From Antedon mediterranea (lineage: Eukaryota > Echinodermata > Crinoidea > Comatulida > Antedonidae): 64,000 nucleotides of DNA. The DNA lies in contig NC_092674.1 of assembly GCF_964355755.1 (NCBI RefSeq), positions 3,911,001-3,975,000 on the forward strand, read 5' to 3'. Every line of letters starts with the position of its first letter. The stretch's first letter is position 1. Under the pieces are notes generated by a model that was given only the letters and a program-made list of their open reading frames with translations, was not told where the DNA came from and searched no databases. Position numbers and translations under genes: made by a program. Positions 2,450 through 63,119 of this stretch are shown here, piece after piece.

Positions 2450-5130
2450 CTCCTTTCAGTGTGTCTATTTTGCCCATCTACAAGTCAAAACAAATGTAAC
2501 ATGTAATACATTTATGTGGACGTTAATATTTGTTATGAGCTATTTAGTGTATATTATTTGATTGTTTTTTTACTACTGTACTTTAACTAGTTGAACTGTA
2601 AATAAACTGAACACTAGGCATATTTATTACAACGAGATCTTTATCTATGGTTCATATAGGATTTCCTTCCTGAAAAAAAAATCATCAAATAAACTTGACA
2701 GAGGAAATAACGCATTATGGTCAAGTTAAATGTTCTTATTTGATGCAGATTGTGGAGGCTCTTTTGAGAGATAAACCGCCCCTTTCTCAAATAATTTTTA
2801 TTCCAATGCAGCAATGCCCCCCAACCCCCATCCAATTGTTCCGATTGTCGTCATAACTATTCAGAATAATTACGGCAATACATTGTACAGTCTGTTCGTT
2901 TGTCCTTCGTATTGTTCGTTTTTTTCTGTTCGAATTATACGTTTGTTATTTAATTACTGTAGGGCCTACTGTTTTTGGTGGCCAGCCCTTCTCAAGTTTT
3001 TCTTCTTTTTCGCCCGGCCCTCTTAATTTTCTGTACATACAGTAAGTGATTTAATTGTTATTGTTGAGAAAAGAGAAAATAATTTGAATGAATAAATAAA
3101 AGCAATTTGAATCATAGAATAAATAATTTATAGAACAAACAGTAAATATAGGAATTGTACATAAAACGTTATTCATAAAATAATATTTATTTTCACAACA
3201 TGAATGTGATGTCAGTTTAACTAACACTATCTTTACATTATACAATTCATGAGGACATTTCTACGTAATCCCCGCAAAAGAACTCATCTGACAAGGGCCA
3301 TCATTCACAATCCGTATAGGGTAATTAAATGTACAGTATAGGGGAAATGTATGAGGATTCTTTCTATCGATGTATGTATGATCATAACATTAAATCACGT
3401 GTACAAAATTACAAGATCTAAATCCTGTTCTCTAATATCTTAAAACGCATCATTCATACAAAATTATCTTTCTCTATGTATCTATTGCATAAAACCCAGG
3501 AAAATGGAGCCGTAAGAAGAATAAATTGGTACGGCCATCTGATAAGAAACAAAGAAAATATGGACTAAAATGATACACGGTGATTTGAAAAATGTACTAA
3601 ACTATAACAGGCTCACGATTCCACAACAGGAATAATTGGCTGGAAATAGTAGAATGCGCCTAATGAAAAATAGTTTGGTTTCGTCCTATAATTATATGTC
3701 TATTGAAATGTCTGTTCTACATAAACGTTTACGATAAGAATATTTCTAAATTAAAAGAAACACGTTATTGGAATTTGATACCTCTAACTCACATCATTAG
3801 GGTATTCATGATGTCGCTGATAAAATAAAATATTTTTTTCAACGTACAACTTGTTCATTTTTGTTTTTTATGCTTGTTTTGGTGTCCCACACAAGGCTCA
3901 TTGCGTTTTATTATTTATATAAATGATTTGGCCTACACTTGTAAACACTAAAATATTATACTTTATTATGAATGCCTAAAATTTAATAATTTTTAATAAC
4001 GATTTTAACGTTCTCTTTTTTGGTCATCCTTCCTACTTATATTTTTGTTCTCTAAATAACTAAAAGAAAGATGGAAAAATAAACTGATTGGTAAATTACT
4101 GTTAACAAACTCTTACCTTCGTTCTTTATCCTCTACAATCAAAACAGTTCTATTGTCTGTTTTAATGTCATTTTTATAGTTTAGTGTTGTACGCATTGTA
4201 TTGTAATATCAGGGAAGAGTAATTGAACTCCTTCCTGGTAATATCAATATCAATTTAATGTTCCATAGTAACAATTGGCGCAATCCGGTGTTTCACTGCG
4301 AGTACGGTCATTTGGACAAAGGTAATATAATTTAAAAAATGACATCTGTTACCATGCCATTTCCACGGAGATTATATTTAGTTATATAAACTAAACTGTT
4401 GAAAATCGAAACAAATAGAAATCACCATGGCAACTTCGATCCCAATGCTTAGATTGGTCGATTCACATAATATACTTTTAAAAGTAAATTATATTGTGTT
4501 ACTCTTGAAATATACATTATATATATCCCTGAGATATTTTGCATTTAATTCTGTAGAATTTTAGTACCACTATAAAACAAGTAACAGAAAGCTATTCGAT
4601 CCGGTAATACAGAAGTGTAATAACATTTTATTCAAAGACATTGTATTCACATTGTTTGACCGGTACAGTATTTTGTCTTTACATTATTATACTTTTTGTT
4701 AGCCCTTCATATAATGTGATTGTTCAGTACTTTCCTTGAATGATTGTGCCTAACTTAGGCAAGGAATTAATGAGTAATTACTAATTTATTGATTTGATGA
4801 CACATATATAGATTGAGAGATAAATTGATTTATGTAAAGATTGCCAAACCCACTTACCCATTCTAAATAAATACTTTTAAAATAACTACTTAAAAAGCAC
4901 TTCTTACGTTACAATTAATTCCTAAAGGATGCACTACTTTTATTATGTAAAACAAAGAAAATAATAATAATTGACATATTGTTATGTACTTCAAACTTGT
5001 AATAGCCTAAATCTATTTAAAAAACCCGGACCCTCACCCTTTGTCTAGCTTCACACTATTCCTACCTCCAACCACTCAAACATTGATCTAGATCTTCTCC
5101 CCCCCCCTCCCTGCTTACCCAAGCTTGATT
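2450..5130. repeat. Gene-free stretch containing 3'-flank sequence shared with other DED copies
   Basis: No convincing coding exon. About 3110-3310 resembles 19430-19600 and 50640-50790, the DNA downstream of gene E and its gene-less duplicate. About 3400-3560 matches 11210-11345. These patches travel with the DED gene copies and suggest segmental duplication. The rest is AT-rich with no assignable function. One micro-palindrome insertion (4210-4237) is listed separately. Confidence 0.45.
4210..4237. mobile_element. 28-bp palindromic micro-insertion with 7-bp duplication
   Basis: CAGGGAAGAGT at the left and ACTCCTTCCTG at the right form an imperfect inverted repeat. The insert is flanked by GTAATAT at 4203-4209 and 4238-4244. 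It belongs to the CAGGG/CATGG-ended family described in the findings. Confidence 0.6.
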
Positions 5131-5136
5131 TCTCTT

Positions 5137-6754
5137 ATCGTTTTTTCTTTTTCTTACTTTTCGAAACATCTGGACTACAGCTTCTTTTATTTGTTGTTAT
5201 TAGTTTAGAAGCTACATGGTGTAGACCTATATCTTTAAGGTCTTTAATAATTTCTTTCGCACCATCAGCAAATACATTCAGACCATTGATCTGTATACGC
5301 ATTCTTCGACACTTCATACACATCTCCCACTCGTTTTGCTTCATCTTTTGAAAGTGCTTTCCCGAGTCCCATCAGTTGTTATCGATAGGCCGAGAATGAT
5401 GTGATTTTGCCGTCTTTGTTTGCGTTACTGAGTAGTTTCACATCTTCTACAACTCCACGGGTATCTGTCACTTTCACCATATAAGATCTCCACAAACCGT
5501 CAAGGCATCGAACAAGCTGGATACGTCTTTCTGTTCTTCTGCATCTTGTATAATGTCCCTGAACAGCAGTCTCAGCATGGTTATTTTGTCTCTGTTTTGG
5601 TACCGTTGTGATGTCTTTGACAGCATGACATTAAACTCCTTGGATTCTAACTTTAAAGAAAGAGAACGGATTTATGTTGTGATGTGACATAACTAATTGG
5701 CACAGGTTACTTATTGTAGGCCTATATTGGAGAAATAAATTAAATACTAATACGAATAGGTATCCCTCTATTCATTATAAACGTAATTAAAACTGTTAAA
5801 CGGAATGGTAGACTACCTTTAGGTGCTGATGTCACATCTTCGTTCAGATCTGCTAAAACAAAAATAAAATGTTGTTATCACTGAATATTTCAAATTTTAA
5901 AATAAACATAGGCCTACAATAAAAAAAGTTTACCTTGTGTTGCTGTTGACATCGATTGTGATTGTTCTCTAGGGTCTGTAAGTTTTGACAGATTAGCTGA
6001 AATAATAACATTTATATCTAAATAAATAATACATTTCTGTCATGCTAAATACACCTTGCATGAAGCAAGGAAATATTCACATTGCTTCTGGTAGAGAAAT
6101 TAATTGTTTGAGCACATATCAATCAAAATCAATCAACCAAAATCATTAATTACTCACCAAATTAGAAAAAAAGTACAACGTACTGTACAAAATATAAAAA
6201 ATACGCGTTACCAAAAGAGGTGTTCTTACACGAGTTGTACGTTCAGATAACTGAATTATGTTAAATTTAAGATAAATGTTGTTTTATACACACCTATAGT
6301 TTTTTTGCTGTTGAGTTGAGGTTACTTGCAAACCGTTTTATCTTCACTTCTAATCGTCCCTGGTTCTCCAGGTGGAATACCAGATCCCAGATATTGTCAA
6401 AGCCTTTGTGACTTAGTTTGTAGACATCAGAGCTTCATACAATGCTCTTCGATAAGGCGAAAGTCCTTTTTCTCCTTTTAGGAGCATATTTGGTGTACTC
6501 ATCTATTACATTTTTGCTAATTGCAAATGTGTCATTTCTGACAGAAGGTGTATTTCGGTAACATTTATGTAGCCAGACTCTTTGAGTTCATTGAATAAAT
6601 CAAACTTAGTGATATCTTTACGGTCTAACATTGAGAGAGGTAGGACATCATAAAAAAGGAATCTTAACAATAGAAATTTATCACCAGGATATACGTCATT
6701 AAGATCTTTAAGAAATTCTTTAAAGCGATCTTCGTTTTCCTGTTCATTTTGCAT
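5137..6754 (-). pseudogene. Decayed DED-like paralog (copy B)
   Basis: All four exons of the gene A/E layout are recognisable: exon 1 6294-6754, exon 2 5934-5996, exon 3 5817-5852, exon 4 about 5137-5650. The translation from 6754 (MQNEQENEDRFKEFLKDLND) matches the DED module. Exon 1 then has a frameshift near 6510 and a further deletion around 6425. The exon 4 acceptor has changed from TTTAG|AG to TTTAAAG, moving the junction by 2 bases. Exon 4 also carries a net 28-bp deletion near 5480 and a loss of part of the fourth module near 5288. The lysine-rich C-terminus survives (5137-5344). This is a pseudogene, although a shorter protein cannot be excluded without transcripts. Confidence 0.75.
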
Positions 6755-10929: not shown

Positions 10930-12430
10930 ATAAAGTGTATATTGCCTCAAAGTTTTACCGAGGCAAGCATGAATTGCTGAAAAGACGATCTATGCAAGGC
11001 TAATTTTCTAAAAAAAGGATGGGATAACCAATCGAAAAGTGAGGGAAAGGCCTACTTTCCGTAATGTGAAGCTTTATATCGATGGTTGTTTGAATATGTA
11101 ATACACATACTTCGGAGAAAGTCATGGATAATGCTTTTACCAATATATTTGATCATCATCACAGTAAATCAGGTGTTATATTGCCGATGTCCCTGAACAC
11201 TATTCTATCCCAAAATTACAAAATCTAAATCCTGTTCTCTTAAATCTTAAAAACGCATCATTCATACAATACTATTATGATTATCTTTCTCAATGTATCT
11301 ATTTTATAAAACCCACGAAAATGGAGCCGTAAGATAAAAAGAAGAATAACTTGGTATTAAAGGACACCCGTAAAACTAGCTCTAAAAAAGAAAGACCCGT
11401 TGTAAGACCAGGGAAAATATGGATTAAAATAATACAAAATGATTTGAAAAATGTACTAAACTACACAACATACTTCAGACACACCTGGCCCCAACAGAAA
11501 TAATGGCATGAAATAATAATAATGATTTGAACTCGACACTTTGACGAGTTCGGGTTATCCGCGGAAAGGCAACATACACATACGTTAAACTATATGAACG
11601 TCGACAATTATTATGCCATCCTATGACATGAATTAAATAAAGTGCTGAATATTTTGTGTCATAAAGCATAACAGTATTTACGGAATACACTGTATATGTT
11701 ATATACAGTGTTATAGATTAAATTACGAGACCCGTCTTTTAATTCAATTTTAAAGATGATTGTTCATCATCATGTAACATAAAGATAGCAATTTCAGAAA
11801 AAAAGCGCATACTTACGCTACGCGAACATATTTTTATTAAACCAAAGTCAGGTGGCCGAGTTACAGCTGAACTGCTTTCGCAGTTTTATAGATCTGCCAG
11901 ACACAAAAAATGAGCAGAGGCATTTTTTGACAATAACAATCGCTCTCTGTGGGGGAGAGAGCGATAGCCTTAAATCGCTCTACAGAGAGCGATAACCAAA
12001 AAAAAAAGGAGTTTGGTTTTCGTCCTATATATTAATAGGGACTAGGGAAAAACTAGGGAAAACACGACTAGGCTATGGGCGTGCCATGGATACGCTCGTT
12101 TGGTTTCAGTTTTTGTTGCTAAATTCATAGTTTTTAACAGAAATTCGGACGATTTTCGCTATAAAATTTGGGTTTTCATAATTATTTAACAATTGTACTC
12201 TCGTTTGGTAGGTATTTGCAACATTCTGAGTCTCGTTTGTTTCCGTTTGGTGTTTAGTAGAGGGAGGGGTTGTTATAAAACAAAATATAATTAATAGTCG
12301 AAAATAAGTGCTCTCTTAATATAGCCTATAATATTTATTTTCTTCCGGTTCTGGTTAGGTATAGGTTATATTAAATGGTAAATCTTATAAGACTATATCA
12401 AGATTTTTTCCGATCTTACCTTTTTTCCTC
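10930..12430. other. Gene-free stretch with duplicated patch and hairpin
   Basis: No coding exon supported. About 11210-11345 is a copy of 3400-3530. At 11941-11997 two stem-loops built from ATCGCTCTCT / AGAGAGCGAT repeat units form a cruciform-like pair. The remainder is AT-rich without recognisable function. Confidence 0.4.
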
Positions 12431-12640
12431 CCGAAACGAACCAAACAAAATGGCGGCGTCCGATAGGTTTAAATTATATGCTTTAGGCCTATACCTTACA
12501 ATAAAGGTACGACGCCAATTGATTTTCTGGGGAAACCACAATATAACCGAACGGTTTATGTATAGATATGGAACTCGAAACAAACAATGGCAATAGAACG
12601 AGCGTGCCGAATAATCGATTTTGCATAACAATAGGCCTAC
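12430..12640. repeat. Dispersed repeat copy (AAAATGGCGGCG core)
   Basis: Resembles 48130-48320 and, more weakly, the flanks of the MITE at 1860-2356 and the region 50110-50300. Shared elements are an AAGATGGCGGCG-like core, a GACGCC or GGCGCC patch, a CTGGGGAAA patch and AATGGCAATA. It is probably the remnant of an old interspersed repeat rather than a gene. Confidence 0.4.
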
Positions 12641-12692: not shown

Positions 12693-12745
12693 CATGGATC
12701 TATAAATGAATTATTAATAATAATTAATACTATTATAGGTCCATG
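12693..12745. mobile_element. 53-bp palindromic micro-insertion with 7-bp duplication
   Basis: Starts CATGGATCTATAA and ends TTATAGGTCCATG, which pair as a stem around an AT-rich centre. GTTATAC occurs directly on both sides (12686-12692 and 12746-12752). The terminal bases CATGGAT equal the left terminus of the 4.5-kb element at 29599. Confidence 0.7.
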
Positions 12746-12759
12746 GTTATACTGGGTCG

Positions 12760-13491: not shown

Positions 13492-13563
13492 CGCCTCAAC
13501 CGAGACTCGAACTCGGACCGCCTGCTTGATATGCAGATGTCCTAACCATTAGACCACTGGGGC
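13492..13563 (-). tRNA. tRNA-like sequence, copy 1 (anticodon loop reads ATC)
   Basis: The minus strand folds into a cloverleaf. Box A TGGTCTAATGG and box B GTTCGAGTC are intact, and the T arm CCGAG-loop-CTCGG is fully paired. The anticodon stem CTGC/GCAG encloses ATATCAA, giving anticodon ATC. The body resembles tRNA-Glu/Asp. The acceptor stem has mismatches in this copy. Because it sits inside a duplicated repeat it may be a tRNA-derived repeat rather than a working gene. Confidence 0.5.
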
Positions 13564-13854
13564 TTTCATGGTATTGTTCGAACTCGATTGGATAACGACT
13601 CTTTAACATTCTCGGCGTGGTACGGCGGAACAGCACTAGTCCTCAGTTGTACGCACGCGCAACAGAGATCAAATTGATACGCCCTCATCTTTCAGTATTT
13701 TTATTCACGAGGCGGGATCTCCGAAGAGATACTTTTATATATATAAACACAAGAGGCAAAGAACATTAATTCTAAACCGCCCGGTGATATACTGAAATTT
13801 AATTAATTAATTTGAAACGATAAAGATGAGGAAATCTGTGAGAATGAGAAAAAG

Positions 13855-13926
13855 TCTCCCCAACCGAGACTCGAACTCGGACCGCCTGCTTGATATGCAG
13901 ATGTCCTAACCATTAGACCACTGGGG
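13855..13926 (-). tRNA. tRNA-like sequence, copy 2
   Basis: Same sequence as copy 1 except in the acceptor stem, where TTGGGG pairs properly with CCCCAG. This is therefore the best-folded of the three copies. Anticodon loop ATATCAA; intact box A and box B. Confidence 0.55.
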
Positions 13927-14139
13927 CTTTCATGGTATTGTTCGAACTCGATTGGATAACGACTCTTTAACATTCTCGGCGTCGTACGGTGGAACAGCAC
14001 TAGTCCTCAGTTGTACGCACGCGCAACAGAGATCAAATTGATACGCCCTCATCTTTCAGTATTTTTATTCACGAGGCGGGATCTCCGAAGAGATACTTAT
14101 ATATATATAAACACAATAGGCAAAGAACACATATACTGA

Positions 14140-14368
<229 letters not shown>

Positions 14369-14439
14369 AAAAAATTCAGTATATCACCGGGCGGTTTAGA
14401 ATTAATGTTCTTTGCCTCTTGTGTTTATATATATATATG

Positions 14440-15250
14440 AAGATGAAGGGCTAGTGTTGCCCGAAAGCTCTGCTAACTTTTCTGGCTGTTTTACTTTATC
14501 GTTTTGATTTAGTTTTCCGTTTTTTTTTTGTATCTCCATTGAGATCTAGCTACATGATACCCACAGCATTGTCATTTCTTCAGTAATTTGCCTTTGGCAC
14601 AGCACAGGCACAGAATAAATTCTAATCCGCCCGGTGATATAATGAAATTTAATTAATTAGAAACAATAAAAATGACGAAACCTGTGAGAATGAGAGAAAG
14701 TCCTAACTGAGATTCGAACCCGGAACCTTCTGCTTGATATGCAGATGTTCTAACCATTAGACCACTGGGGCTTTCATTATATTGTTCCAATTCGATTGGA
14801 CAGACTCTCGGTGGGGTATGGCTGAATGTATCTGTACATAGCTGTGCCTACTGTATACTGGTGGATATATATATATTGCTGCTACTAAATTTGTCGATTA
14901 ATTTTACGTTTCTCCTCCGAAACCGCTGAATGGTACGTGCTCACATTTGGCACACTTATGTTTCCTTTTATCATTGTTGAATGTTTTGATATTAGCCTAA
15001 TTGTTAAAACAACCTTCACAACCAAAATATTTCTTTGTAATAAAATTTATTTTAAATGGAACGCTACAAAAATAATCCTCTGCTTCATCAGAGCATGAAT
15101 GCCTAATAACCAGACAAGAACGTATCTTTATTACGTTTTACTATCAATCCATTTTCATATCACGCAATCCATTTTTCAACAATATAGTATACAGTATAGT
15201 ATAATAACATTTTGATTGAATAGTGAGGGATTAGTTACAGTTTGACTTTG
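14440..15250. repeat. Composite dispersed repeat with third tRNA-like copy
   Basis: 14441-14600 (gatgaagggctagtgttgcc, ccacagcattgtcatt) recurs at 18630-18700, 19230-19350, inverted at 52500-52660, and in part at 63020-63080. 14940-15240 (ATATTTCTTTGTAATAAAAT region) recurs at 18700-18960, inverted at 53040-53290, and at 54850-55090. These are parts of one repeat family. No gene is seen. Confidence 0.6.
14700..14771 (-). tRNA. tRNA-like sequence, copy 3 (diverged)
   Basis: Retains box A TGGTCTAATGG, box B GTTCGAATC, the CTGC/GCAG anticodon stem and loop ATATCAA. The acceptor 3' side is degraded (GTTAGGAC). Probably a pseudogene of the 13492 and 13855 copies. Confidence 0.4.
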
Positions 15251-16763: not shown

Positions 16764-17910
16764 CTAGTATATTTCATTGAATTTCTGCATTATTGTTGAC
16801 AATTTATTTTCAACTATTAATTGATGTGTTGATTGTGGCATTACAGCAATAGCTTGTCTTCTTTGATTGTTCATCCATTTTAAAGTGTCATAGTAAGAAA
16901 CGTTCAAATAAATATTGTGAATGTTGCTACCACATTTTGTGTTGATTTCTTCACCATTTTCCACTACTTGCTCATATTGTTCATTCAAGTGTGTTAATAC
17001 CTATTAAAAGAAAGACATTATTTATTAAAATATGTACATAAAAAGTTTAATTGTGTGAATGTTGGTTTGAACGTTATTGCTTTGGAAGAATTTTCAACAT
17101 AACGGTACTAAGTACTGTAAAGTACACATTCCAAAAAATATTTAACTTAGATTATTTGGTCATTTTCTCTAAAATAATAACATTATTGGATGTACAGTAT
17201 AGGCCTAGTTACAATTTTCACAAATTTATATTAGCATTAAAATCTAATTAATCATGAAGGAAAAACCAAGCACCATAATCTCTCCTGGCCCTGGTGGTGA
17301 CCTTATTTTCTATTTTTGGCAGCCATTCACAAGTTTTCGCTTTTTGAGTTTCGCTGCTCTTATGTATAATTTTTTTTAATCACAAACTCTACATAGAAAA
17401 GAAAATTAAATGTTTTAAAATGAATGAAAAGTGATATGAATAATGATAAATTAAAGACTATTATTAATATTATAGTATTATACTAAAAATAAGACGAGTT
17501 GGTGGTGTCGAAATTCACACAAGTCACAATAAAACCATGGAGGTATAAAATATTTTATTTTTATACCTCCATGCTAAAACCTTATTCCTTACTCCATGCT
17601 CACAGATGAATGTTATAGGCCTAATCCTATTTAAAGCTAGGTTGGCAATAACTATTAATAAGGCTTACAAGTTGTATCTATTAGTATTAGCTAGGCCTGC
17701 TACTCACTCAGGGTGAACCCTCACTCAGGCCTACAACTAGGCCTAGTACTACTACTACTACTACTAGACTAGCTACTACTCTAGGCCTAGCCAATAGATA
17801 GGGGATAGTACACTAGATAGCCAGTACAGCTGTAATGGGCTAGCTAGGCTTCCTATACTAACTAACAAAGCTGCACCATAGAAACTACAGTTCTTACTTA
17901 CCAATCTGCT
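16764..17910 (-). CDS. Putative small spliced gene of unknown function
   Basis: The terminal exon 16764-17000 is open from a good acceptor (CTTTCTTTTAATAG|GTA) to a stop. It encodes VLTHLNEQYEQVVENGEEIN and onwards, about 78 residues with charged helical character (KWMNNQRRQAI, STIMQKFNEIY). A possible preceding exon at about 17302-17360 (SSETQKAKTCEWLPKIENK) ends AAG|GTCACC in phase 0, matching the next exon's phase, but its own acceptor is weak. A 5' non-coding exon may end at 17902 (GCAGATTG|GTAAGTAAG). I do not recognise the protein. The gene lies between two oppositely oriented TTAA-MITE ends, so it may be cargo of an element rather than host DNA. Confidence 0.4.
17536..17573. mobile_element. 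38-bp palindromic micro-insertion
   Basis: Near-perfect palindrome starting CATGGAGGTATAAAATA and ending TTTTTATACCTCCATG. Flanks are ATAAAAC (17529-17535) and CTAAAAC (17574-17580), a 7-bp duplication with one mismatch. Confidence 0.65.
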
Positions 17911-20661: not shown

Positions 20662-22424
20662 TTAACGTTTTTTCTTTTTCTTACTTTTCGGAACATCTAG
20701 ACTATAGCTTCTCTTATTTGTTGTTATCAGTTTAGAAGCTACATGGTGTAGACCTAAATCTTTAAGGTCTTTAACTAATTCTTTCGCACCATCAGCAAAT
20801 ACATTCTTTGTTTTTTCAAGATGCATGATTAAAGACCATTGATCTGTATACGCATTCTGTGGCACTTCATACACACTTCCCACTCGTTTTGCTTCATCTT
20901 TCGAAAGTGCTTTCCCGAGTCCCATCAGTTGTTGTCGATAGGCCGAAAATGATGTAATTTCACCGTCTTTGTTTGCGTCACTGAGTAGTTTCACATCCTC
21001 TACAACTCCACGAGTATCTGTCACTTTCACCATGTCGATTAGAACTTTGTAGTTTGTACGCGTAAGATCTCCACAAACCTTCAAAGTATCGAACAAGCTG
21101 GATACGTATTTGTGTTCTTCTGCATCTTGTATAATGTCCTTGAACAGCAGTCTCAGCATGGTTATTTTGTCTCTGTCTTGGTACCATTGTGATGTCTTTG
21201 ACAGCATGACATTAAACTCCTTGGATTCTAACTCTAAAGAAAGTGAACGGATTTATGTTGTGATGTGACGTAACTAATTGGAACAGGTTACTTATTGTAG
21301 GCCTATATTGGAGAAATAAATTAAATACTAATACAAATAGGTAGCCCTCTATTCATTATAAACGTAATTAAAACTGTTAAACAGAATGGTTAGACTACCT
21401 TTAAGTGCTGATGTCACATCTTCGTTCAGATCTGCTAAAACAAAAATAAAATCTTGTCATCACTGAATATTTAAAGTTTAAAATAAACATGGGCCTACAA
21501 TAAAAAAAAAATAACAGTAAAATATGAATTATTTTTTCAATCTAGTTTACCTTGTGCTGCTGTTGACGTCGATTGTGATTGTTCTTTAGTCACTGTAAGT
21601 TTTGACAGATTACCTGAAATAATAATACATTTATATATAAATAACTATTTTTTTAAAATAAATTTCTTACACGCTAAATACGCCTTGCATGAAGCAAGGA
21701 AATATCATATTGCCTCTGGTAAATATGTTAATTGTTTGAGCACATCAATCAAAATCAGTCAACCAAAATCATTAGTTACCCACCAAATTATATAAAAAGT
21801 ACAAAATATAAAAATAATCGTTACCAAAAGAGGTGTTCTTACATACACGAGTTATACGTACAGATAACTGAATTATGTTAAATTAAAGATAAATATTGTT
21901 TTATACACACCTAATTTTTTCTTTGCTGTTGAGTTAAGGTTACTTGCAAACCGTTTTATCTTCACTTTTGTAGAGTCTAATCGTCCATGTTTCTCCAGGT
22001 GGAATACCAGATCCCAGATATTGTCAAAGCCTTTGTGACCTAGTTTGTAGGAAGCACGTAGTTTGCGCAGATCATCATCTCCAACTGCCATCAGAGCTTC
22101 ATACAATGCTTTTCGATAAGGTGAAAGTCCCTTTCCCTTTTTAGCATCGTTGGTGTAGTCTTTTATGACATCTTTATCTGACTGCAAATTTGTCACTTCG
22201 GCAATTTCTGATAGAAGGTTTATTTTGGTGTATCTTATGTCCCCCGATTCTTGGAGTTTATAAAATAAATCCAACCCATCGATACCTTTAAAGTCTAACA
22301 GTGAGAGGGGTATATAATCATAAAGAAGAAATCTTAACAATAGGAATTTATCACCTTCATATTCGTTACTAAGATCTCTAAGAAATTCTGCAAAGCGATC
22401 TTTGTTTTCTTGTTCATCTCCCAT
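20662..22424 (-). CDS. Gene E: complete DED-like adaptor, four coding exons, about 394 aa
   Basis: Exon 1 22424-21911, exon 2 21613-21551, exon 3 21434-21399, exon 4 21233-20662 (stop). All junctions are GT-AG and phase 1, and the joined frame is open throughout (1185 nt). Residues about 10-85 fit the DED pattern (FAEFLRDLSNEYEG, LLRFLLYDYI, LFYKLQESGDI, NLLSEIAEVTNL). About 100-168 is a second module (YRKALYEALMAVG, FDNIWDLVFHLEKHG). Exon 4 encodes a second pair: about 217-285 (TMLRLLFKDIIQDAEEH, SLFDTLKVCGDLTR) and about 300-375 (YRQQLMGLGKALSKDE, DQWSLIMHLEKTKN, LKDLGLHHVASKL). The C-terminus is a basic KSKKKKKR tail, possibly nuclear or RNA/membrane-binding. The charge-triad RxDL motif of classical DEDs is not obvious. 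The ATG follows an acceptor, so a 5'UTR exon lies upstream. This is the best intact member of the cluster; function as a death-fold adaptor is inferred. Confidence 0.78.
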
Positions 22425-23803: not shown

Positions 23804-23845
23804 CAGGGAAGAGTTAAATTAAAATTGTAATTTAACTCTTCCCCG
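23804..23845. mobile_element. 42-bp palindromic micro-insertion with 7-bp duplication
   Basis: CAGGGAAGAGTTAAATT pairs with AATTTAACTCTTCCCCG across a short loop. ATCATAC is present on both sides (23797-23803 and 23846-23852). Confidence 0.75.
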
Positions 23846-29598: not shown

Positions 29599-30370
29599 CA
29601 TGGATAAAAGAATAGAAGGATATGCATCGACGGTGACATCAAACGATTTTACAACGCGCTTGCCTATACTAAAGCACTGCTGCCAATCAAACAAACACGT
29701 TCATTGAACTCCGTGTCTCTAACCGCGGCCCTCTGTAAAACGCTGCGAATCAACTGTTACATTTTTTGAGACCAAAACGTAATCATGTAGAAATCGTATG
29801 CGCAGTCTGAATGTTCTATTGACATGTCTGCGTCGATGATTAATTGACAACAAAAATATATTGCTGAATAATTCTGTTTTAGTTTCATCACAATCGGACT
29901 ACGAAAAGTTCACTTTCTTACGACTGGTAATTTTAAGTAGTTGGTAATATTATTAATAAAATATGCAAATTTTATAGTTGAATTATCATTATTTGCCTGC
30001 CATCTTCTGTCATTAAAAATTGCGTTAATCTATAGAATATTAAATTATGCATTTGACCATGTATGTTGTTAGCGTGGCCGGTGTTCACCCATACAACAAT
30101 CGTGCTTTTAATATATGGCTAAGCAGTGGTTTCTTCATAAATCTCCTTAATTATCGATGTGATTATATTTAAATTGTAGTGCCTGGTGATTGGCTAGTGG
30201 TTATGTCATCCACATCACATCCAATCACCGGGTCTAATTGAATGAAAACAGCGATCCCTGATCCGGGATTGGCTGGCTATGTATAGTTGCGATACGTTAC
30301 CTAGCGGTCGTTTTGAAAAGTACACGCAGGGCAAACTTAATCACGAACAAACGAAGTACAGTACCTATTA

Positions 30371-31437: not shown

Positions 31438-31704
31438 GTACCTATTATTATTCACACAAGAAGTAAGACAACGGTGAGTATATAGATCATGATTACACGT
31501 TGTATCTACTACACTTAAGATTAGCCTAGGCCTACCTAGGCAGTATCAATGTTGGCAAATCATATGGTTTAGGCCTAGTCCTAGTATCCTTGCTGATTTT
31601 GTAATTTTACATGTAGGCCTAGGCTGAGACAACAAATAGTTATTGTAAAAACATTAGCGTAGATCAATCGCGGCAGAAACCTATACTAATTACAATTATA
31701 GCAT

Positions 31705-31767: not shown

Positions 31768-31778
31768 TGTTGCTAGCG

Positions 31779-34078: not shown

Positions 34079-34102
34079 TATCCTTCTATTCTTTAATCCA
34101 TG

Positions 34103-40769: not shown

Positions 40770-41858
40770 GGGTGTCACGAAAGCTCAGACCACGAAAGCT
40801 CAGACCCCCTAAGACCTAAGATCACGAAAGCTAAGACCCAACACCTAAGATTACAAATATTTATCTTTCGCACCTGCCTTGTATTTTAACTCCCAACATT
40901 TATTCTGAATACCACACCTTAGAATTGGCACTTTCATGAAAAAGAATCACATAAAAAGTAACAAATACATTTTTAAATTGATGATTTTACAGACGTTTTT
41001 CTCGCACACAAAATGACTAGCCTACAGTACAGTAGGCCTACCCCATGGATGGGCCATGTTCAATGTTTTTGTTTCTATGGAACGTCAAAAGAGCAAAAAT
41101 TATATAGAGGGCTGAAAACTCTGTGGAGTCCATCTACAGTGTGGATGGAACAATGTAAAATTAAAATTGTAATGATAATAGTATAATCATGCAAGTACGA
41201 AGAAATAAATACTGGCAAATAAATTTTAATTTAAAAATCATGATAAGTTTTTTTGTTTCGTTTTCTTTCTGTTTTTATACTTGTACTTTTATTGTTGCTC
41301 TTTTGGCGCTCCATAGAAACAAAAACATTGAGCATGGGGAGCTCGAGGAGTTACATTGTCATTACAGTATACAAAGAAACACATCTGTAAAATCATCAAT
41401 TTAAAGGATTTATTTATTTGTTATTATGTGTTTCTCCTTCTGAAAGTACTTATAAGTCCTAATTTTAAAGTGTGGTGTTCAGGATAAAGTTAGTCAACAA
41501 ATTTGGAGTCAAAATACAAGAAAGGCAGGTGCGTAAGAAAAACATCCTCTGAAGCAACACAATGGAGTAAATATATACCAACAAACAACCCGTCAAGTTT
41601 GTTTGTTGTAAAGAAAAAATATACATTTACTCAACGGGCGAAAATAATGTGAGTTTATCTATGTTTTGCGGTAGTATTAAATTATATTTATGGTAATAAA
41701 TGAAACCTACTGTGTTTAAAATTATGTATGGATAAACAAGTATTGTTTTTAATCTGTAGTATATCTTAGTATTTGTAATCTTGGTGTTGGGTCTTAGCTT
41801 TCGTGATCTTAGGTCTTAGGGGGTCTGAGCTTTCGTGGTCTGAGGTTTCGTGACACCC
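40770..41858. mobile_element. Foldback element, copy 2 (1089 bp, 10-bp duplication)
   Basis: Same family as 30371-31437, with the internal arms in the opposite orientation. Ends GGGTGTCACGAAAGCTCAGA and the inverse (TTTCGTGACACCC). The flanking duplication is GTGTCTGATG (40760-40769) and GTGTTTGATG (41859-41868), one mismatch. The pol frame is continuous across the site without it. Confidence 0.85.
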
Positions 41859-44848: not shown

Positions 44849-44893
44849 TTGAAGATCCAAAATGGCCATAAGCACTTTGGATCTAAGAGGAGG

Positions 44894-45069
44894 TGTGAGG
44901 CTCTTAAGGCCGCCCATACGTATGACGTATGGAGTTGGAGAAAAAGAGAAACAACGTGCGTAGACCGCCATATTGTTCGTTTGACTTGAGTTGTTATTAA
45001 AGTTAGTTATAGCACATCTTTGTGTATAGTTTTATTATTGTGGTATTGACAAAGCAACATACCCAAACA
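44894..45069 (+). repeat. 3' LTR
   Basis: 176 bp, TGTGAGGCTC at the start and ACCCAAACA at the end, followed by target duplicate TGCAG. Includes AAGTTAGTTATAGCACATCT and a TATTAAAG motif that may act in polyadenylation. It is unbroken, so it shows the empty target site of the 4.5-kb insertion. Confidence 0.88.
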
Positions 45070-48120: not shown

Positions 48121-48330
48121 AACAATGAAACAAACAAGATGGCGGCGTTCGATAGCTTGTTGAATATTATAAGCTTACAAGCATACAGATAATAATATCT
48201 CTATGTTACAAGGTACAACGGCGCCAAATTTATTTCCTGGGGAAATAACCTATAACGGTTTATTGTCACAAAACAAAAAATGGCAATAAACGATCGTGCG
48301 GAATCGGGTTTGGTTATCAATAACACAGGG
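48120..48330. repeat. Dispersed repeat copy (AAGATGGCGGCG core)
   Basis: Aligns with 12440-12640: ACAAGATGGCGGCGTTCGAT, GGCGCCAAATTTATTTCCTG, AAAATGGCAATAAACGA. Confidence 0.45.
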
Positions 48331-49379: not shown

Positions 49380-50600
49380 CATGAACTGTTTTAAAAGATC
49401 CGGCTAATGATTCGTGAGTGATGTTTTTGCTGTCTTCTCCTCTGGAATGAATGAATAACTGATTATTAACTACCCCCTTTAAACATTTTTATCAGCATCA
49501 TATTCAATTTCTCTTATGGTTTTCTTTTTTCCTGACGCTTCGGGACTAAATGAAGCTTCCCTGTTGGTATCTAGAATTTCGAAGCTATTTGTTTTAAAGA
49601 AATAACTTTTAAATTAACAGATTGAAATGATGAATTGCATTAATAAGGAAGAATAAGTATGAATAATTGTAAGCATGCATAAGGTCAATATAAAACAGCT
49701 ATGCATGGACTGTACTCCTTTTGCCTTTGTGACCCCGCCCTGCCTACGCCCATGTAATTAAATAAGTATGCCCATAATGAGTGTGTTATTGCACTATAAA
49801 TAAAATAAATTAATGATAGTAAACATAACGAACGAACAATTTTATCAGTATTTATATACGGTTTTTATATTTAATGTTCTATTCGAAAGAGATTTATTAA
49901 ATAATAATAAACTAGATATAAAATGAAATATAAACAATGGTCATATCAGGGAGGTATTATACCTCCCTGGTCATATGCCAAGTTTGAGATTGCTACTGGC
50001 TCCTCCTATTAGTATTATCTTAGGTTCTTCTTAATTGTCTTTAGCCGTTCTAGTACAAACTACCATCACTCCTTACTTCAAACATTATATCAATTTTATT
50101 TTAGTTCTTTAGTTTATATTCAAACATAAAAATAGCTCCCGTTACATAATTTGGATGCGCCTACAACTATTGGAGATAGCGACTAAAATCGTTTTCCTGG
50201 GAAACTACACGATTCTATTAATAACCCATCGGGCTGTTCAGTGAATTAAACAATTACAATAGAACTGCAGCAGTTGGTTTTTCTTTCTTCCTTTCTTTTA
50301 ATAAGTTATTCTCCATGAGCATATCTATTGTGTCCGCTGCTATACATTACAATCCAAACAAGAATGTATGTGGACGTTAATAATCATTTTGTATTTGCTG
50401 AATATTTGAGTGTTTTGAACCGTGTAAATAACCTGAACAATGTACAATCTTCTAGTTGTATAGGCTAGTAGCTAGGGAATCATGTCCTTTCTGACTGAAC
50501 GCCATCTTGTTTAAGCATTTAATTTTAAAAAATCACAAAAATCATGAAAATGTTGATAGTAAGTACATTGACGCAGATTTTGATTTTTTGAGTGATGGGA
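49380..50600. other. No gene seen; repeat patch at 50000-50300
   Basis: About 50010-50300 belongs to the dispersed repeat with the CTGGGAAACTACACGATTCT patch, also flanking the MITE at 1860-2356. One micro-palindrome (49947-49969) is listed separately. Confidence 0.4.
49947..49969. mobile_element. 23-bp perfect palindromic micro-insertion, 7-bp duplication
   Basis: CAGGGAGGTAT, one central T, then ATACCTCCCTG: a perfect inverted repeat. GTCATAT lies at 49940-49946 and 49970-49976. Confidence 0.8.
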
Positions 50601-50890: not shown

Positions 50891-50914
50891 CATGGAGATT
50901 TTTATACCTCCATG
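50891..50914. mobile_element. 24-bp palindromic micro-insertion, empty site available
   Basis: CATGGAGATTT and TATACCTCCATG are an inverted pair. ATCAGAT is at 50884-50890 and 50915-50921. The paralogous segment at about 19698-19707 reads CATCAGATCAAAG with one ATCAGAT and no palindrome, a natural empty site. Confidence 0.85.
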
Positions 50915-51191: not shown

Positions 51192-51213
51192 CATGGAGCT
51201 ATTTAGCACCATG
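51192..51213. mobile_element. 22-bp palindromic micro-insertion, 7-bp duplication
   Basis: CATGGAGCTA and TTTAGCACCATG form the palindrome. CTTAAAT lies at 51185-51191 and 51214-51220. Confidence 0.75.
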
Positions 51214-55620: not shown

Positions 55621-56237
55621 TTTTCTTTGTTTTATTTGGAGTGTGGTTTAAAACAACACTTTTGTAAAGTTTATAGTGGATAAATGAAAATGAATTTTTG
55701 GAAAATGTGGTTTTAACATCTGACTTTATTTAGCATTTTTAATTGAATTAAAATTCCAAATTATACAATTTAACCTTTTGCTCAATATATTTATAGCAAC
55801 TGCTTCATATTTTTTGTACAACTTTTTAAAATTATTAATTGATAATTAATTTACATTAATTGAGTACAGTTATTAGAATGTATTACCGTACCAAAAGTAC
55901 CTTAATCGGAGACTTCCCCGCGACGTTTGCATTGAACGAAAGAAAAATTATCATAAATTTACGTGCGAGAGTACTATTTGCGGCCATCTAGGGGTGTCAT
56001 TTAACAATTTGCTTGCTCAAATACTCAGTGTCTACAGCCCTGGGTTGGCATTTATCAATATTTGCTTATATTTTTGCTTAAGCTGAAATATTTAAGAAGT
56101 GCTTAAGCAAATAACTTAATCTTATTTATCAAACCGTCTTAGCAATGTCTTAGCAGAACAAGCACGAATGTGCAATACTCGGGGTACAGCGAAAGAAGCT
56201 GTATACAGACGTATACAGTTAGAAAGTAAAGAAAATA

Positions 56238-56308
56238 GGTTTCGCCAGGGCTCGAACCGGGACCTTCTGCGTGTTAAGCAGACTTGACAACCACTACACT
56301 ACGAAACC
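56238..56308 (-). tRNA. tRNA-Val(AAC)-like sequence
   Basis: On the minus strand, GGTTTCG and CGAAACC form a perfect 7-bp acceptor stem. The anticodon loop TTAACAC gives AAC between TCTGC and GCAGA. Box A TAGTGTAGTGG and box B GGTTCGAGCC are present. Compared with animal tRNA-Val the T stem is one base short and has a mismatch, so it may be a pseudogene. Confidence 0.6.
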
Positions 56309-56520
56309 TCTTACATTAAAAATGTGGGTTACAGAAAGTTTTTTAATCCATTTAAATTACAAATAAATGGTAATAAGCACAAAGCAAAATAAACATGTGT
56401 AAAAGTGATAATTACCGATTACACAAAATAAGTATTTTAAAAAATAATAAAAATAAGATATACTCTGTATAATTATCATATTGCGTATACAGTACTTTTC
56501 ACCATAAAGTTAAAAAAAAA

Positions 56521-56592
56521 GGTTTCGTCCGGGCTCGAACCAGGTACCTTCTGCGTGTTAAGCAAACGTGATAACCACTACGCCAAGAATCC
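56521..56592 (-). tRNA. tRNA-Val(AAC)-like sequence, degraded acceptor
   Basis: Same body as the copy at 56238 (GTGGTTATCACG, CTTAACACGCAG, GGTTCGAGCC), but the 5' acceptor strand GGATTCT pairs poorly with CGAAACC. Probably a pseudogene. Confidence 0.45.
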
Positions 56593-57604: not shown

Positions 57605-59360
57605 ATAGCTCTATCTGTGTTTATTTACAGCAATTTGTTGAGGAAACTAAATATATCAATGTAAATAGGTGGTATTGATACAGTTGAGTAGGCCTACGTA
57701 TCGGCTGGTGGTCTAGACAAAAATAATCGAATGCCATAGGCCTAATGTAAACTACAGTACATGATACCATAGATATTATAGTGTAATATATTAAATTCAC
57801 TATAATCCTCTATGATGATGATACACTATACTTCATAGCCACACATAAATATTGTAGGTAACCGCAGCGTTCCATTTTTTGATGTACGTCGGAAGGCTAT
57901 ATACTTTATGCATGCTGACTGCCAGTGATCGAAACAATAGGTACGCGGTTGTATAGCGGTGTTCTTTGTACGATTCGTTCGTGGCCAAGCTCGCGTCAAT
58001 ATCATGTTACATCCTGGGACCAAAAATTCGTATTATTTTTCAGGTGAAAATCGGCAACCGCTGTAAAGGGGGGTTCGCCCGAACCATAAAAACCCCCCCT
58101 GGCTACGGGCCTGATTATGGCTAAATCAACGACCCGTGTGACGGGGGTTTACCACGATCACAGTGTGTAGTGGCACTTCTCACGCACACAAGCAATCCAA
58201 ACAGACGGTCAACAAACACAACAAAAACGCTAGTTTTCCAACCCTGAACTTCTATAACGTTAATGATTAATATAAATATATGCTGAAATGGGATCTAAAT
58301 TTTAATTTAGTGGCAGAAAAATTTAGTATGAAATTAAAGGTGTTGCCCGGGCAACTGGGGAAACACCCCTGCGTCCGCCCCTACTGTATAGTCAAGTGCC
58401 TATGAAAATTATCCCGTTTAGCCTACATTTTATTAAAACGTATTACTATTAAAATATTAACAATGCTGCAGCATTTCATGACCCTTGTTGTTTTATTTGC
58501 TTTCCCGTCGATGATTCTCATAAACAAATCGCGATGACAAAAGAGGTGTTTTGTTTTTTTCAAATCATTAAATATAATGTAATGATGATCGAGCCGGACC
58601 GCTAATTTTTAAACGATCGTTTAAACACCCAGGTCGTTGAATATACCGTGATTTTAATTGTCAAAAACATGATGTCAGTCGATGGCTCGGAGTTTCGATA
58701 AATCTCGCGTCGCATGTGTTGCGTGGTGGTGGAAAACACTCTCAGCAAGTTTGCTTCATTAATATGAGACTCTGTGACGACCCGCTTTAACGTGACGTCA
58801 TTTTACTTTAAGGCTGGTTTCCTGTCGACGTAAGAAGTCGAATTTTGCAACGATTCTTGCGTTTCATACGTTTCTTACGTCTCTTACGAAAGTTGAGAAA
58901 AAATTGACGTCGTTGACGTTAGTCAAGACCGTGTCGGGCCGCAGAAAAACATCTGTAGTTATGCTGCTCCCGAAAGTTGAAATTTTAGCTGTGAAACACA
59001 CGTCGTATGCGAGCTATATTTCCTATACCATCCTGGCTAGTTGAGAATTCTCAACTATTTTATGTTTTTTTCTACCTTTCTGGAAAATGATATAATCCAA
59101 ATTGTATTAATACTATCAGTAGTAAACATTTAGAAACACTTGCATACCTTCACTAATTTTAGTTGTTTGTAGTTTAAGACAATCTTAGTGATATTTAAAT
59201 GAAAACAATACCATAAAAACTATTGTGTCTGTATTTTACAAGACTATGACTTCCGTATAACGTGCATTGTGGGTACTTCAATTTTTATAGAAAAGCTAGG
59301 GAATCCTAATTTAGTAGGTAGCATATGGGGGCGGGGCAACCAAACTTGCTTATCAAATCA
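57605..59360. other. No gene seen; MITE ends and a perfect palindrome
   Basis: 58068-58107 carries an inverted CAGGCCCGTAGCCAGG terminus matching 54633. 58811-58835 is one end of the GTCGACG MITE. 59037-59056 is a 20-bp perfect palindrome, TAGTTGAGAATTCTCAACTA, whose halves equal part of the satellite hairpin downstream. Confidence 0.45.
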
Positions 59361-59390
59361 AAGCACAGTAAAGCAAAGGATAAAATTAAT

Positions 59391-62115
59391 GTACGATCCA
59401 GTTTACCACTGTTCTCAACTATAGTCATTTTAGTATACTTGAGCACAGTGATAAAGAATAGGATAAACTTAACAATATACAACAAATAGCATTAATGTAC
59501 GATCCAGTTTAACACTGTTCTCAACTATAGACATTTTGGTATACTTGAGCACAGTGATAAAGAATAGGATAAACTTAACAATATACAACAAAAAACATTA
59601 ATGTACGATCCAGTTTAACCCATGTTCTCAACTATAGTCATTTTGGTATACTTGAGAACAGTGATAAAGAATAGGATAAACTTAACAATATACAACAAAT
59701 AACATTAATGTATGATCCCGTTTAACACTATTCTCAACTATAGTCATTTTGGTATACTTGAGCACAGTGATAAAGAATAGGATAAACTTAACAATATACA
59801 ACAAAACATTAATGTACGATGTAGTTTAACACTGTTCTCAACTATAGTCATTTTGGTATACTTGAGCACAGTGATAAAGAATAGGATAAACTTAATAATA
59901 TACAACAAATAGCATTAATGTACGATCCAGTTTAACACTGTTCTCAACTATAGTCATTTTGGTATACTTGAGCACAGTGATAAAGAATAGGATAAACTTA
60001 ATAATATAGAACAAATAACATTAATGTACGATCCAGTTTAACACTGTTCTCAACTATAGTCATTTTGGTATACTTAAGCACAGTGATAAAGAATAGGATA
60101 AACTTAATAATACAACAAATAGCATTAAGGTATGATCCCGTTTAACACTGTTCTCGACTATAGTCATGTTGGTATACTTGAGCACGTCAGTGATAAAGAA
60201 TAGGATAAACTTAATAATATACAACAAATAACATTAATGTACTATCCCGTTTAACACTGTTCTCAACTATAGTCATTTTGGTATACTTGAGCACAGTGAT
60301 AAAGAATAGGATAAACTTAATAATATACAACAAATAGCATTAATGTACGATCCCGTTTAACACTGTTCTCAACTATAGTCATTTTGGTATACTTGAGCAC
60401 AGTGATAAAGAATAGGATAAACTTAATAATATACAACAAATAGCATTAATGTACGATCCCGTTTAACACTGTTCTCGACTATAGTCATTTTGGTATACTT
60501 GAGCACAGTGATAAAGAATAGGATAAACTTAATAATATACAACAAATAAAATTAATGTATGATCCCGTTTAACACTGTTCTCAACTATAGTCATTTTGGT
60601 ATACTTGAGCACAGTGATAAAGTATAGGATAAACTTAACAATATACAACAAATAACATTAATGTACGATCCCGTTTAACACTGTTCTCGACTATAGTCAT
60701 TTTGGTATACTTGAGCACAGTGATAAAGAATAGGATAAACTTAACAATATACAACCAATAACATTAATGTATGATCCCGTTTAACACTGTTCTCGACTAT
60801 AATCATTTTGGTATACTTGAGCACAGTGATAAAGAATAGGATAAACTTAACAATATACAACAAATAACATTAATGTACGATCCAGTTTAACCCTGTTCTA
60901 AACTATAGTCATTTTGGTATACTTGAGCACAGTGATAAAGAATAGGATAAACTTAACAATATACAACAAATAACATTAATGTATGATCCCGTTTACACTG
61001 TTCTAACTATAGTCATTTTGGTATACTTGAGCACAGTGATAAAGAATAGGATAAACTTAACAATATACAACAAATAACATTAATGTACGATCCCGTTTAA
61101 CACTGTTCTCAACTATAGTCATTTTGGTATACTTGAGCACAGTGATAAAGAATAGGATAAACTTAATAATATACAACAAATAACATTAATGTATGATCCC
61201 GTTTAACACTGTTCTCAACTATAGTCATTTTGGTATACTTGAGCACAGTGATAAAGAATAGGATAAACTTAACAATATACAACAAATAACATTAATGTAT
61301 GATCCCGTTTACACTGTTCTCAACTATAGTCATTTTGGTATACTTGAGCACAGTGATAAAGAATAGGATAAACTTAACAATATACAACAAATAACATTAA
61401 TGTATGATCCCGTTTAACACTGTTCTCAACTATAGTCATTTTGGTATACTTAAGCACAGTGATAAAGAATAGGATAAACTTAACAATATACAACAAATAA
61501 CATCAATGTACGATCCCGTTTAACACTGTTCTCACCTATAGTCATTTTGGTATAGTTGAGCACAGTGATAAAGAATAGGATAAACTTAACAATATACAAC
61601 AAATAACATCAATGTACGATCCCGTTTAACACTGTTCTCAACTATAGTCATTTTGGTATACTTGAGCACAGTGATAAAGAATAGGATAAACTTAACAATA
61701 TACAACAAATAACATCAATGTACGATCCCGTTTAACACTGTTCTCAACTATAGTCATTTTGGTATAGTTGAGCACAGTGATAAAGAATAGGATAAACTTA
61801 ATAATATACAACAAATAACATTAATGTATGATCCCGTTTAACACTGTTCTCGACTATAGTCATTTTGGTATACTTGAGCACAGTGATAAAGAATAGGATA
61901 AACTTAACAATATACAACAAATAACATTAATGTATGATCCCGTTTACACTGTTCTCAACTATAGTCATTTTGGTATACTTGAGCACAGTGATAAAGAATA
62001 GGATAAACTTAACAATATACAACAAATAACATTAATGTACGATCCCGTTTAACACTGTTCTCAACTATAGCCATTTTGGTATACTTGAGCACAGTGATAA
62101 AGAATAGGATAAACT
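59391..62115 (+). repeat. 106-bp satellite array, about 26 copies
   Basis: Unit starts GTACGATCCCGTTTAACACT; starts at 59391, 59497, 59603 and so on give a 106-bp period (105-107). Copies differ at a few positions only. Each unit holds CACTGTTCTCAA and TTGAGCACAGTG, complementary at 11 of 12 positions, around a 20-base loop, so every monomer can form a hairpin. The last unit breaks off at 62115. Confidence 0.95.
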
Positions 62116-62118
62116 TAT

Positions 62119-63119
62119 TGCAACTTGTCCATGTCGTATTCATCTACAAATAAAGTGTCTATTACCGTACTTTAAAAAATCTATTTATATCAATACCTAT
62201 CAACGTATGTACGTGTGCATATTATATTATACAAAAATATATACATCAACATAAATGTCATATCATCTACAGTCATTAGTGTTATTTCACCTTTAATAAC
62301 AAAGGCAAAATACTTAAATAATAACAATGCTGTGGTCTCAATGGAGATACAAAAAAAGAAGCGAAAAGCTAAATCAAAACGAAATGTGCTAATGCGTATA
62401 GATATGCTGAGTGGTTTCCGAGAAATATGAGTACGCATAATATGGCCTTACGGAAAAGTAATACATACCAGGTCCCCAAAAATAAGACAAATAGATATGG
62501 AAACAGTGCAATCCCGTTTCTCACTCACTGCCACAGTATTGATTAAATAATAAAAGAAAATAGATGTATAATGTAACCAGATATTAATTAATTTGACATA
62601 TAGGCCTAGTAGAAATTTCTTGAATTTGACTCAATTTATTCTTAATTCTCATTTAATTTTGTATTTAATGTTTTTGTAAATGTATAATTGTAATTATTTA
62701 ATTGTCTGAAGTCGACTTTAATTAAGAAACCAATGTAAATACTGCAACTTAAATTTAAGATTATATTTTTATACTGTAATTAAGCATGGACTATTCTTTA
62801 ATCCATGAATTAAGTAATAATGTATATACTATATCCTTGCAATAAGACTATATTTTTTTAACTTTATGTTTACATTTACATATATTTTGTAATTGCGATA
62901 ATTTTGTTTAATGATGACTATTACTTTACTTGTCTTTTGAATGTATATTGTCCCTTACCATGCAATTCAGCAGATTTGCTGCCAATTGGTTTGTTTTTAA
63001 TAAAAAAAGAAAGAAAGAAAGATAAAGTAAACAGCCAGAAAAGTTAGCAGAGTTTTCGGGCAACACTAGCCCTTCATCAGTGCAAGTGAGGGTACCTGTA
63101 CAAGATAGTGTTATTTAAC
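62119..63119. repeat. Spacer between inverted satellites
   Basis: 62130-62300 has degenerate copies of the 83-108 bp repeat. 62330-62400 and 63020-63085 carry parts of the 14441-14600 family (GAGATACAAAAAAAGAAGCG; AAACAGCCAGAAAAGTTAGC). The rest is AT-rich, with no gene. Confidence 0.55.
62785..62807. mobile_element. 23-bp micro-insertion sharing its right end with the 4.5-kb element
   Basis: Begins CATGGA and ends CTATTCTTTAATCCATG. Those last 17 bases are identical to the right terminus of the element at 29599-34102 (34086-34102). AATTAAG flanks both sides (62778-62784 and 62808-62814). It looks like an extreme internal deletion of that element. Confidence 0.8.

Follow-up and report, generated by a model that had tools for sequence, protein, structure and literature searches.

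In Drosophila, the cut made by the P transposase lies 17 nt inside the element and leaves 17-nt extensions (PMC7776569); among the repair junctions of P{wa} in flies, two recur 14 times each (PMC2895639). The short palindromes analysed here, from a 64,000-nt stretch of the genome of the feather star Antedon mediterranea (the window, meaning the whole of that stretch), are built like the P{wa} junctions, with a duplication, at most 17 nt of each TIR, a microhomology, blunt or A/T-rich joint, and a second duplication (PMC2895639). They differ in their TIR sequences, in the length of the duplication (8 bp in the fly construct, 7 bp in the crinoid) and in their provenance, the fly junctions being experimental whereas the crinoid scars are fixed in a natural genome. 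Galileo, a P-superfamily transposon of Drosophila, likewise has 7-bp duplications, and its palindromic GTANTAC is close to the crinoid RTNNNAY (PMC4168063); its TIRs are very long, in contrast to the ~32-34 nt of the crinoid TIRs, and the portion of that source available to us describes no excision scars. Zebrafish Pdre2/THAP9 shares the CA..TG ends (Pdre2 TIR, CATACCTGTCAAC) and has a transposase that excises elements, but Pdre2 has an 8-bp duplication and a 13-bp TIR, and no natural scars are described in the available portion of the source (PMC10983969). Titles and opening abstracts of the open-licence literature yielded, among the matches listed, neither natural genome-wide P excision scars nor P elements in crinoids.

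We propose that the crinoid palindromes are very probably the excision scars of several P-superfamily-like DNA transposon families and not ultra-short transposons; each looks like the remnant left by the departure of a larger element of 0.85 to 4.5 kb.

Palindromes and target sites in the window

A preliminary description had listed eight palindromes with 7-bp flanking duplications. All eight are present with those flanks, and the duplications are exact at seven, the exception being 17536. They are given below with two sites added here, an intact-ended element and its empty site; no strand is assigned unless stated.

4210-4237: scar, 28 bp; duplication GTAATAT; TIR type CAGGGAAGAGT
12693-12745: scar, 53 bp; duplication GTTATAC; TIR type common to a 40-bp scar on C1 (L043)
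17536-17573: family-A scar, 38 bp; duplication ATAAAAC/CTAAAAC; within a dispersed repeat
23804-23845: scar, 42 bp; duplication ATCATAC; TIR type CAGGGAAGAGTTAAATT
29599-34102: intact-ended family-B element, 4504 bp; TIR of 34 nt with 1 mismatch; duplication GTTTGAC; CA..TG ends
44893-45029, plus strand: paralogous repeat, empty site of the 29599-34102 element; single GTTTGAC
48182-48205: added scar, 24 bp; duplication TTACAAG, both copies exact
49947-49969: scar, 23 bp; duplication GTCATAT; near family A
50891-50914: family-A scar, 24 bp; duplication ATCAGAT; 17 nt of one end plus 7
51192-51213: scar, 22 bp; duplication CTTAAAT
57768-57814: added, probable degenerate scar, 47 bp; left copy ATGATAC, right copy 3 bp off and displaced by ATG
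62785-62807: family-B scar, 23 bp; duplication AATTAAG

The palindrome at 23804 has a terminal CCCCG instead of CCCTG. The two family-A scars, 50891 and 17536, have exactly 17 nt in common. A paralogue of the 48182 region at 12385-12612 (67%) is without most of the 48182 insert. An empty site for 50891 had been placed near 19700; this is not confirmed, because the alignment ends 2 nt past the 7-bp repeat.

The association of the palindromes with 7-bp repeats was compared with shuffled sequence. A scan of the window for CA..TG palindromes (18-60 bp, 8-nt stem, at most one mismatch; criteria that leave out 4210, 17536 and 23804) found an exact 7-bp flanking repeat at six of 125, and among the remainder a repeat of 3 bp in one, of 4 bp in one and of 5, 6 or 8 bp in none. 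The same scan of 200 dinucleotide shuffles gave one case with a 7-bp repeat and 26 with 5 bp or more. When the palindrome was not required, the window had 11 CA..TG inserts (2-80 bp) flanked by an exact 7-bp repeat, seven of them palindromic, where 40 shuffles averaged 2.5 and never exceeded 6; at other repeat lengths, palindromic inserts in the window numbered four for length 5 and none for lengths 6, 8 and 9. hAT elements duplicate 8 bp of their target; palindromic cases at this repeat length were absent from the window and from a 200-kb sample, which does not fit hAT.

The target sites fit RTNNNAY. In the window, position 2 is T at 9 of 10 sites and position 6 is A at all 10, which was equalled in none of 100,000 random draws; at the family-A sites the same positions fit in 29 and 30 of 37. 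The 7-bp duplication is common to the window scars, the 4.5-kb element and the 37 family-A scars. Three features that mark the P superfamily are found, namely a 7-8 bp duplication, CA..TG ends and a palindromic target motif whose outer bases are GT..AC.

Families A and B across the genome

Family-A elements have CA..TG ends, and the TIR of intact elements is ~32-34 nt long. The first 17 nt of the family-A TIR occur 200 times in the genome (reversed control, 0), and the 28-nt TIR, with as many as 3 mismatches allowed, 16 times. Among the 93 occurrences examined there were 75 distinct ends, of which 67 depart from the TIR at nt 17 (56 ends), 18 (1), 19 (8) or 20 (2), seven belong to intact elements and one (L069) retains ~30 nt. 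Copies of the 17536 scar account for 17 of the 93 ends, read elsewhere in the genome. Where the duplications are exact (37 scars), the non-query end on the other side keeps 2-17 nt, with 17 in four and more in none. These 37 carry a P-type footprint of two duplications, TIR pieces no longer than 17 nt and end-joining joints; they comprise 27 distinct inserts and 36 distinct duplications, with variation limited to the joint, and one (L100) is irregular. Empty sites were found for two scars outside the window, over 164 nt at 99.4% and 177 nt at 97.7% identity, both ungapped. Family A persists chiefly as scars.

In family B, by contrast with family A, most copies are still in place. The empty site of the 4.5-kb element aligns without gaps and is identical at 134 of 137 positions. 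On the minus strand, the scar at 62785 consists of 17 nt of the TIR of that element followed by TCCATG, the terminal 6 nt of the other end. The family-B 17-mer is followed by CCATG within 30 nt at 46 places in the genome against 5.8 expected.

These retained lengths point, indirectly, to a 17-nt staggered cut inside the TIR. Elements insert at RTNNNAY sites with the 7-bp duplication seen at these loci. We propose that a P-type transposase would later cut at the outer TIR end on one strand and, judging from the retained lengths, ~17 nt inside on the other, each flank being left with a putative 17-nt single-stranded tail. End joining of the tails would proceed bluntly, through a short microhomology or with A/T-rich filler, as in the joint classes observed, and the likeness to the fly data suggests alternative end joining as the repair route. 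Since both tails copy one inverted repeat, joining is predicted to yield a palindrome of ~22-53 bp with a copy of the duplication on either side.

Several observations count against this proposal. Of the 67 ends, 11 match the TIR for 1-3 bases past nt 17 (GA in eight), and the L069 end retains ~30 nt; the opposite end is present but the duplication absent at 11 of the 93 ends, and unrelated sequence follows another 12 of the 93; a single 25-bp family-A insert recurs at six sites, each with a duplication of its own; at no site was one allele observed to carry the element and another the scar; and no transposase gene could be tied to the family-A or family-B TIRs.

Transposase and alternative origins

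The last point bears on the possibility that the scars come from a different cut-and-paste superfamily, one that makes a long staggered cut and duplicates 7 bp. No responsible transposase gene was identified beside the TIRs: no P transposase was found in the 29599-34102 element, its sole domain above the cut-off being DUF1759 on the minus strand, which we take to be BEL/Pao-related (Zn_ribbon_Dof gives one match below the cut-off), and no TIR with a 7-bp duplication was found around the transposase loci L109, L110 and L111 in the readable span. L109 has three near-identical copies, and its ends lie beyond the span read because the copies match across the entire query. Against another superfamily, P-type domains are present in the genome: PF21788 occurs at 12 places, and PF21787 and PF21788 lie together within one 794-aa frame, so that the genome has an RNase H transposase with a GTP-binding insertion domain. 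No THAP domain was found in the 794-aa frame itself, an upstream exon being outside this scope. The target motif is close to Galileo's, and a 17-nt stagger is unusual and sets P elements apart (PMC7776569); we therefore regard another superfamily as unlikely. The P-superfamily affinity hinted at in the preliminary description thus gains support from the target motif, the 17-nt limit and the P-type domains. In further searches, tblastn of proteins P0001 to P0121 against the window returned nothing below E 0.018 except P0001, a TIR core scan of viral and genome contigs gave 0 matches, no P transposase was confirmed in viral contigs, and among the P-transposase homologues listed (120 in each of two sets, few of them named) none bears an Antedon name.

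That the palindromes are ultra-short MITEs, 22-53-bp elements that transpose themselves and duplicate 7 bp, is very improbable. They resemble MITEs in being short, with inverted-repeat ends and exact target duplications, and the 25-bp insert at six sites is what such an element would give. MITE copies, however, have common internal sequence, and here there is none: the scars share only their ends, up to ~17-20 nt, the 37 scars hold 27 distinct inserts with only the joint varying, and where an insert recurs, at six sites at most, it is a short joint that is repeated. The ends stop near nt 17, whereas intact TIRs reach ~32-34 nt, and such tiny inserts leave no room for the internal transposase binding sites of P elements. 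The family of tiny elements envisaged earlier is accordingly not borne out, since the retained ends belong to a longer TIR and the joints vary by site.

Internal deletion derivatives, which would arise when a gap is only partly repaired from a sister copy instead of being closed by direct end joining, are a highly improbable source. P-induced gaps in flies are often partly repaired by copying (PMC2895639), and the ~30 nt retained by L069 would fit, but copying predicts ends of any length, whereas 67 of the 75 distinct ends leave the TIR between nt 17 and nt 20 and none of the 37 opposite ends exceeds 17 nt. The window does hold 125 CA..TG palindromes, very few of them with a flanking repeat, but the chance that these are random hairpins beside random repeats is practically negligible given one match over 200 shuffles against six in the window, TIR 17-mers occurring 200 and 304 times with reversed controls at 0, and the empty sites; the earlier view of insertions with 7-bp target duplications is borne out to that extent.

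Implications

If the palindromes are past excisions of P-like elements, they record past jumps and the mending of DNA breaks in a feather star. The 17-nt limit, read here from natural echinoderm scars as in Drosophila P, suggests that the P cutting geometry is old. With tail length and TIR sequence known for a family, each scar would serve as a separate natural experiment on how a non-model animal repairs double-strand breaks, and whether excised elements reinsert or are lost could be tested directly by counting, family by family, scars against intact elements. A small palindrome with a target duplication, it should be cautioned, can be a wound rather than an element. It seems rather likely that the genome holds thousands of fixed P-type scars from many TIR families, the older families surviving almost only in this form; if so, they would show that the 17-nt stagger operates in echinoderms together with a 7-bp duplication, and would constitute a natural archive both of end joining in the germline and of DNA-transposon loss by excision.

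Palindromes of the window and a 4.5-kb element

The palindromes of the window are a real finding: all eight that the preliminary description listed are present with their flanks, and window scans compared with shuffles place the association of CA..TG palindromes with 7-bp repeats far above chance; insertion stands. Its account of a family of very short insertions has a better explanation as excision footprints, here called scars, and its empty site for scar 50891 near 19700 has to be withdrawn because the alignment merely ends 2 nt beyond the repeat. The scans added two cases:

48182-48205, further palindrome
57768-57814, further palindrome, degenerate

A window scan for longer pairs revealed an element of 4,504 bp (29599-34102) that has GTTTGAC at either side, a 34-nt terminal inverted repeat (TIR) with one mismatch, and an empty site in the paralogous repeat 44893-45029 (134/137 identical, ungapped). 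The scar 62785-62807, read on the opposite strand, consists of nt 1-17 of this TIR, where the match breaks off, and then of TCCATG, with which the opposite TIR ends. Exactly 17 nt are likewise common to scars 50891 and 17536. Nested inside the element is a foldback-type element of about 1.07 kb (30371-31437; 71-nt inverted ends GGGTGTCACGAAACCTAAGACC.., 8-bp flanking repeat TACCTATT), which has a second copy (96.5%) at 40770-41858 and also occurs in the stretches L044 and L042. The minus strand of the 4.5-kb element carries a 495-aa open frame (31779-33266) with DUF1759, a retrotransposon-related domain.

Elsewhere in the window, ORF 681-1232 is identical to P0001, a protein of the crinoid Antedon mediterranea, across the first 171 residues and has short paralogous proteins at 21873-22424, 27677-28237 and 28710-29252, the last seen by tblastn of the proteins against the window; of the four short proteins scanned, two gave a sub-threshold match to the death effector domain. 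A tandem repeat of about 106 bp at ~59407-62096 contains the inverted repeat CACTGTTCTCAACTATAG..CTTGAGCACAGTG within its unit, and tRNA-like gene groups lie at 13492-14772 and 56236-56592 (three tRNA-Asp, anticodon atc; two tRNA-Val, aac).

Retained TIR length and joints in family A

The genome searched is an assembly of 354 Mb in 18 contigs, with the window at C5:3911001-3975000. For family A (CATGGAGGTATAAAATA), the 17-mer occurs 200 times in the whole genome and the reversed control not once. Allowing up to 3 mismatches, a 28-nt form of the TIR is present 16 times, including five end pairs spaced 845-890 bp; the left TIR of L001, an element of 878 bp, is a little shorter and is absent from these 16. 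CCATG follows the 17-mer at most 30 nt away in 140 cases against about 4 expected, a count in which scars with two full ends appear twice and passenger copies are included. Among the first 100 ends listed, 93 (hence 93 of 200) were read, the other seven being the window's own and six more. A duplication (at most one mismatch, within 75 nt) accompanies 63 of the 93, 7 run on into the TIR, 11 have the opposite end without a duplication, and 12 belong to another class. Scar 17536, copied inside a dispersed repeat, accounts for 17 of the 93, and the A/C mismatch in the 17536 duplication arises because this scar is carried in that repeat.

Merging ends that share their 12-nt upstream flank reduced the 93 to 75. 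By exact comparison, the bases matched past TIR nt 17 number 0 in 57 ends, 1 in 2, 2 in 8, 3 in 2 and at least 11 in 6. Visual inspection corrected two of these: L001's left end (1 base) is part of an intact element, and in L069 (0 bases) a substitution at nt 18 is followed by further TIR, about 30 nt being retained. After correction, 67 of the 75 ends depart from the TIR at nt 17-20 (17: 56; 18: 1; 19: 8; 20: 2), the remainder being 7 intact-element ends and 1 longer remnant. Against a strict 17-nt rule, 11 of the 67 match 1-3 bases past nt 17, mostly GA, for which filler, microhomology or a slight variability of the cut could account.

Thirty-seven family-A scars (24-49 bp long) have exact duplications and distinct flanks; among them, 36 different duplications and 27 different inserts occur. 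One of them, L100, is irregular: it lacks a family-A right end, and its flanks resemble those of L019 at 89%. On the side opposite the end used as query, 2-17 nt are retained (2 solely in L100), with 17 nt in four scars and never more. The joints show microhomology of 1-3 nt in 13 scars and are blunt in 3; inserted bases number 1-3 in 12 and more in 9, and of all 108 inserted bases 83% are A or T. The most frequent insert, 25 bp at six sites, is joined at a 3-nt microhomology. Position 2 of the duplication is T in 29/37 and position 6 is A in 30/37.

Empty sites were sought with 46 flank-joined queries. That of scar L087 matches L047 over 164 nt (99.4%, ungapped) and that of scar L101 matches L005 over 177 nt (97.7%, ungapped); for L104 and L052 the matches are weaker and gapped. 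Such matches identify the palindrome as extra sequence; whether a site was never used or was precisely repaired, it would look the same.

P-type excision as the probable origin of the scars

P transposase makes its second-strand cut 17 bp within the element, giving 17-nt 3' extensions (PMC7776569). PMC2895639 describes Drosophila P{wa} excision, in which 17-nt tails stay on the flanks and the repair junctions have a duplication at each outer edge, up to 17 nt inside each of these, and a microhomology or insertion in the middle; the junction table includes shorter products too. The window scars share this anatomy. PMC4168063 gives GTANTAC as the target motif of Galileo.

This genome has PF21788, the P-type GTP-binding insertion domain, at 12 places, against none in 14 control genomes. 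One transposase family (L109, C1:2821800-2826300) combines PF21787 and PF21788 in an open frame of 794 aa, and its three copies are at least 99% alike, which suggests recent movement. A convergent 337-aa frame without a Pfam match lies beside it. L041:8351-9957 (1607 bp) and L047:5791-6193 (403 bp) are two more elements that end in CA..TG and lie between 7-bp duplications; their TIRs begin CAAAGA.

That elements insert and duplicate 7 bp is established; we propose that the transposase would cut about 17 nt inside the TIR and that the tails would be united by alternative end joining. For the cut, we rely on retained lengths at many sites in family A and, in family B, on one site read fully and one printed by the search; the likeness to the fly junctions points to the end joining. 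What points to a P-type transposase as the maker of the scars is the 17-nt limit taken together with the 7-bp duplication, the target motif and the occurrence of P-type transposase genes in the genome. As a kind, the P-type excision footprint is already known from Drosophila; among the papers that the literature searches listed, none gave a natural record of it from an echinoderm in which duplications are of 7 bp and families differ in their stage of loss.

Scar abundance and the fate of the two families

Sampling C1 every 2 Mb in twenty stretches of 10 kb (200 kb in all) gave three plausible scars whose 7-bp duplications are exact, and a fourth hit of 14 bp that looks fortuitous. At repeat lengths 5, 6, 8 and 9 this palindrome scan gave 3, 2, 0 and 1 matches, and twenty shuffles averaged 0.3 at length 7 (maximum 3). 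Extrapolating from three cases, we estimate about five thousand scars per genome, to an order of magnitude and with wide limits. The window, with ten scars in 64 kb, exceeds the C1 density, having been picked for them in the preliminary description.

For family B (CATGGATTAAAGAATAG; represented in the window by the 4.5-kb element), the 34-nt TIR occurs 275 times in the genome at up to 3 mismatches, and the 17-mer 304 times. CCATG lies within 30 nt of the 17-mer in 46 cases, or 44 after removal of two double listings, against 5.8 expected. These measure 23-29 bp in 13 cases, 32-38 bp in 27 and 39-51 bp in 4; a class near 34 is expected from two full tails. Base-by-base reading, with a check of the duplications, covered two of the 44: the one in the window and one that the search printed. 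Many family-B elements of about 1.27-1.3 kb (C1:12859846-12861149 and similar pairs) have 34-nt TIRs that are identical, a hint that a non-autonomous form has recently spread in a burst. From the TIR, 17-mer and CCATG counts, family B is therefore mostly still in place, and family A persists mostly as scars.
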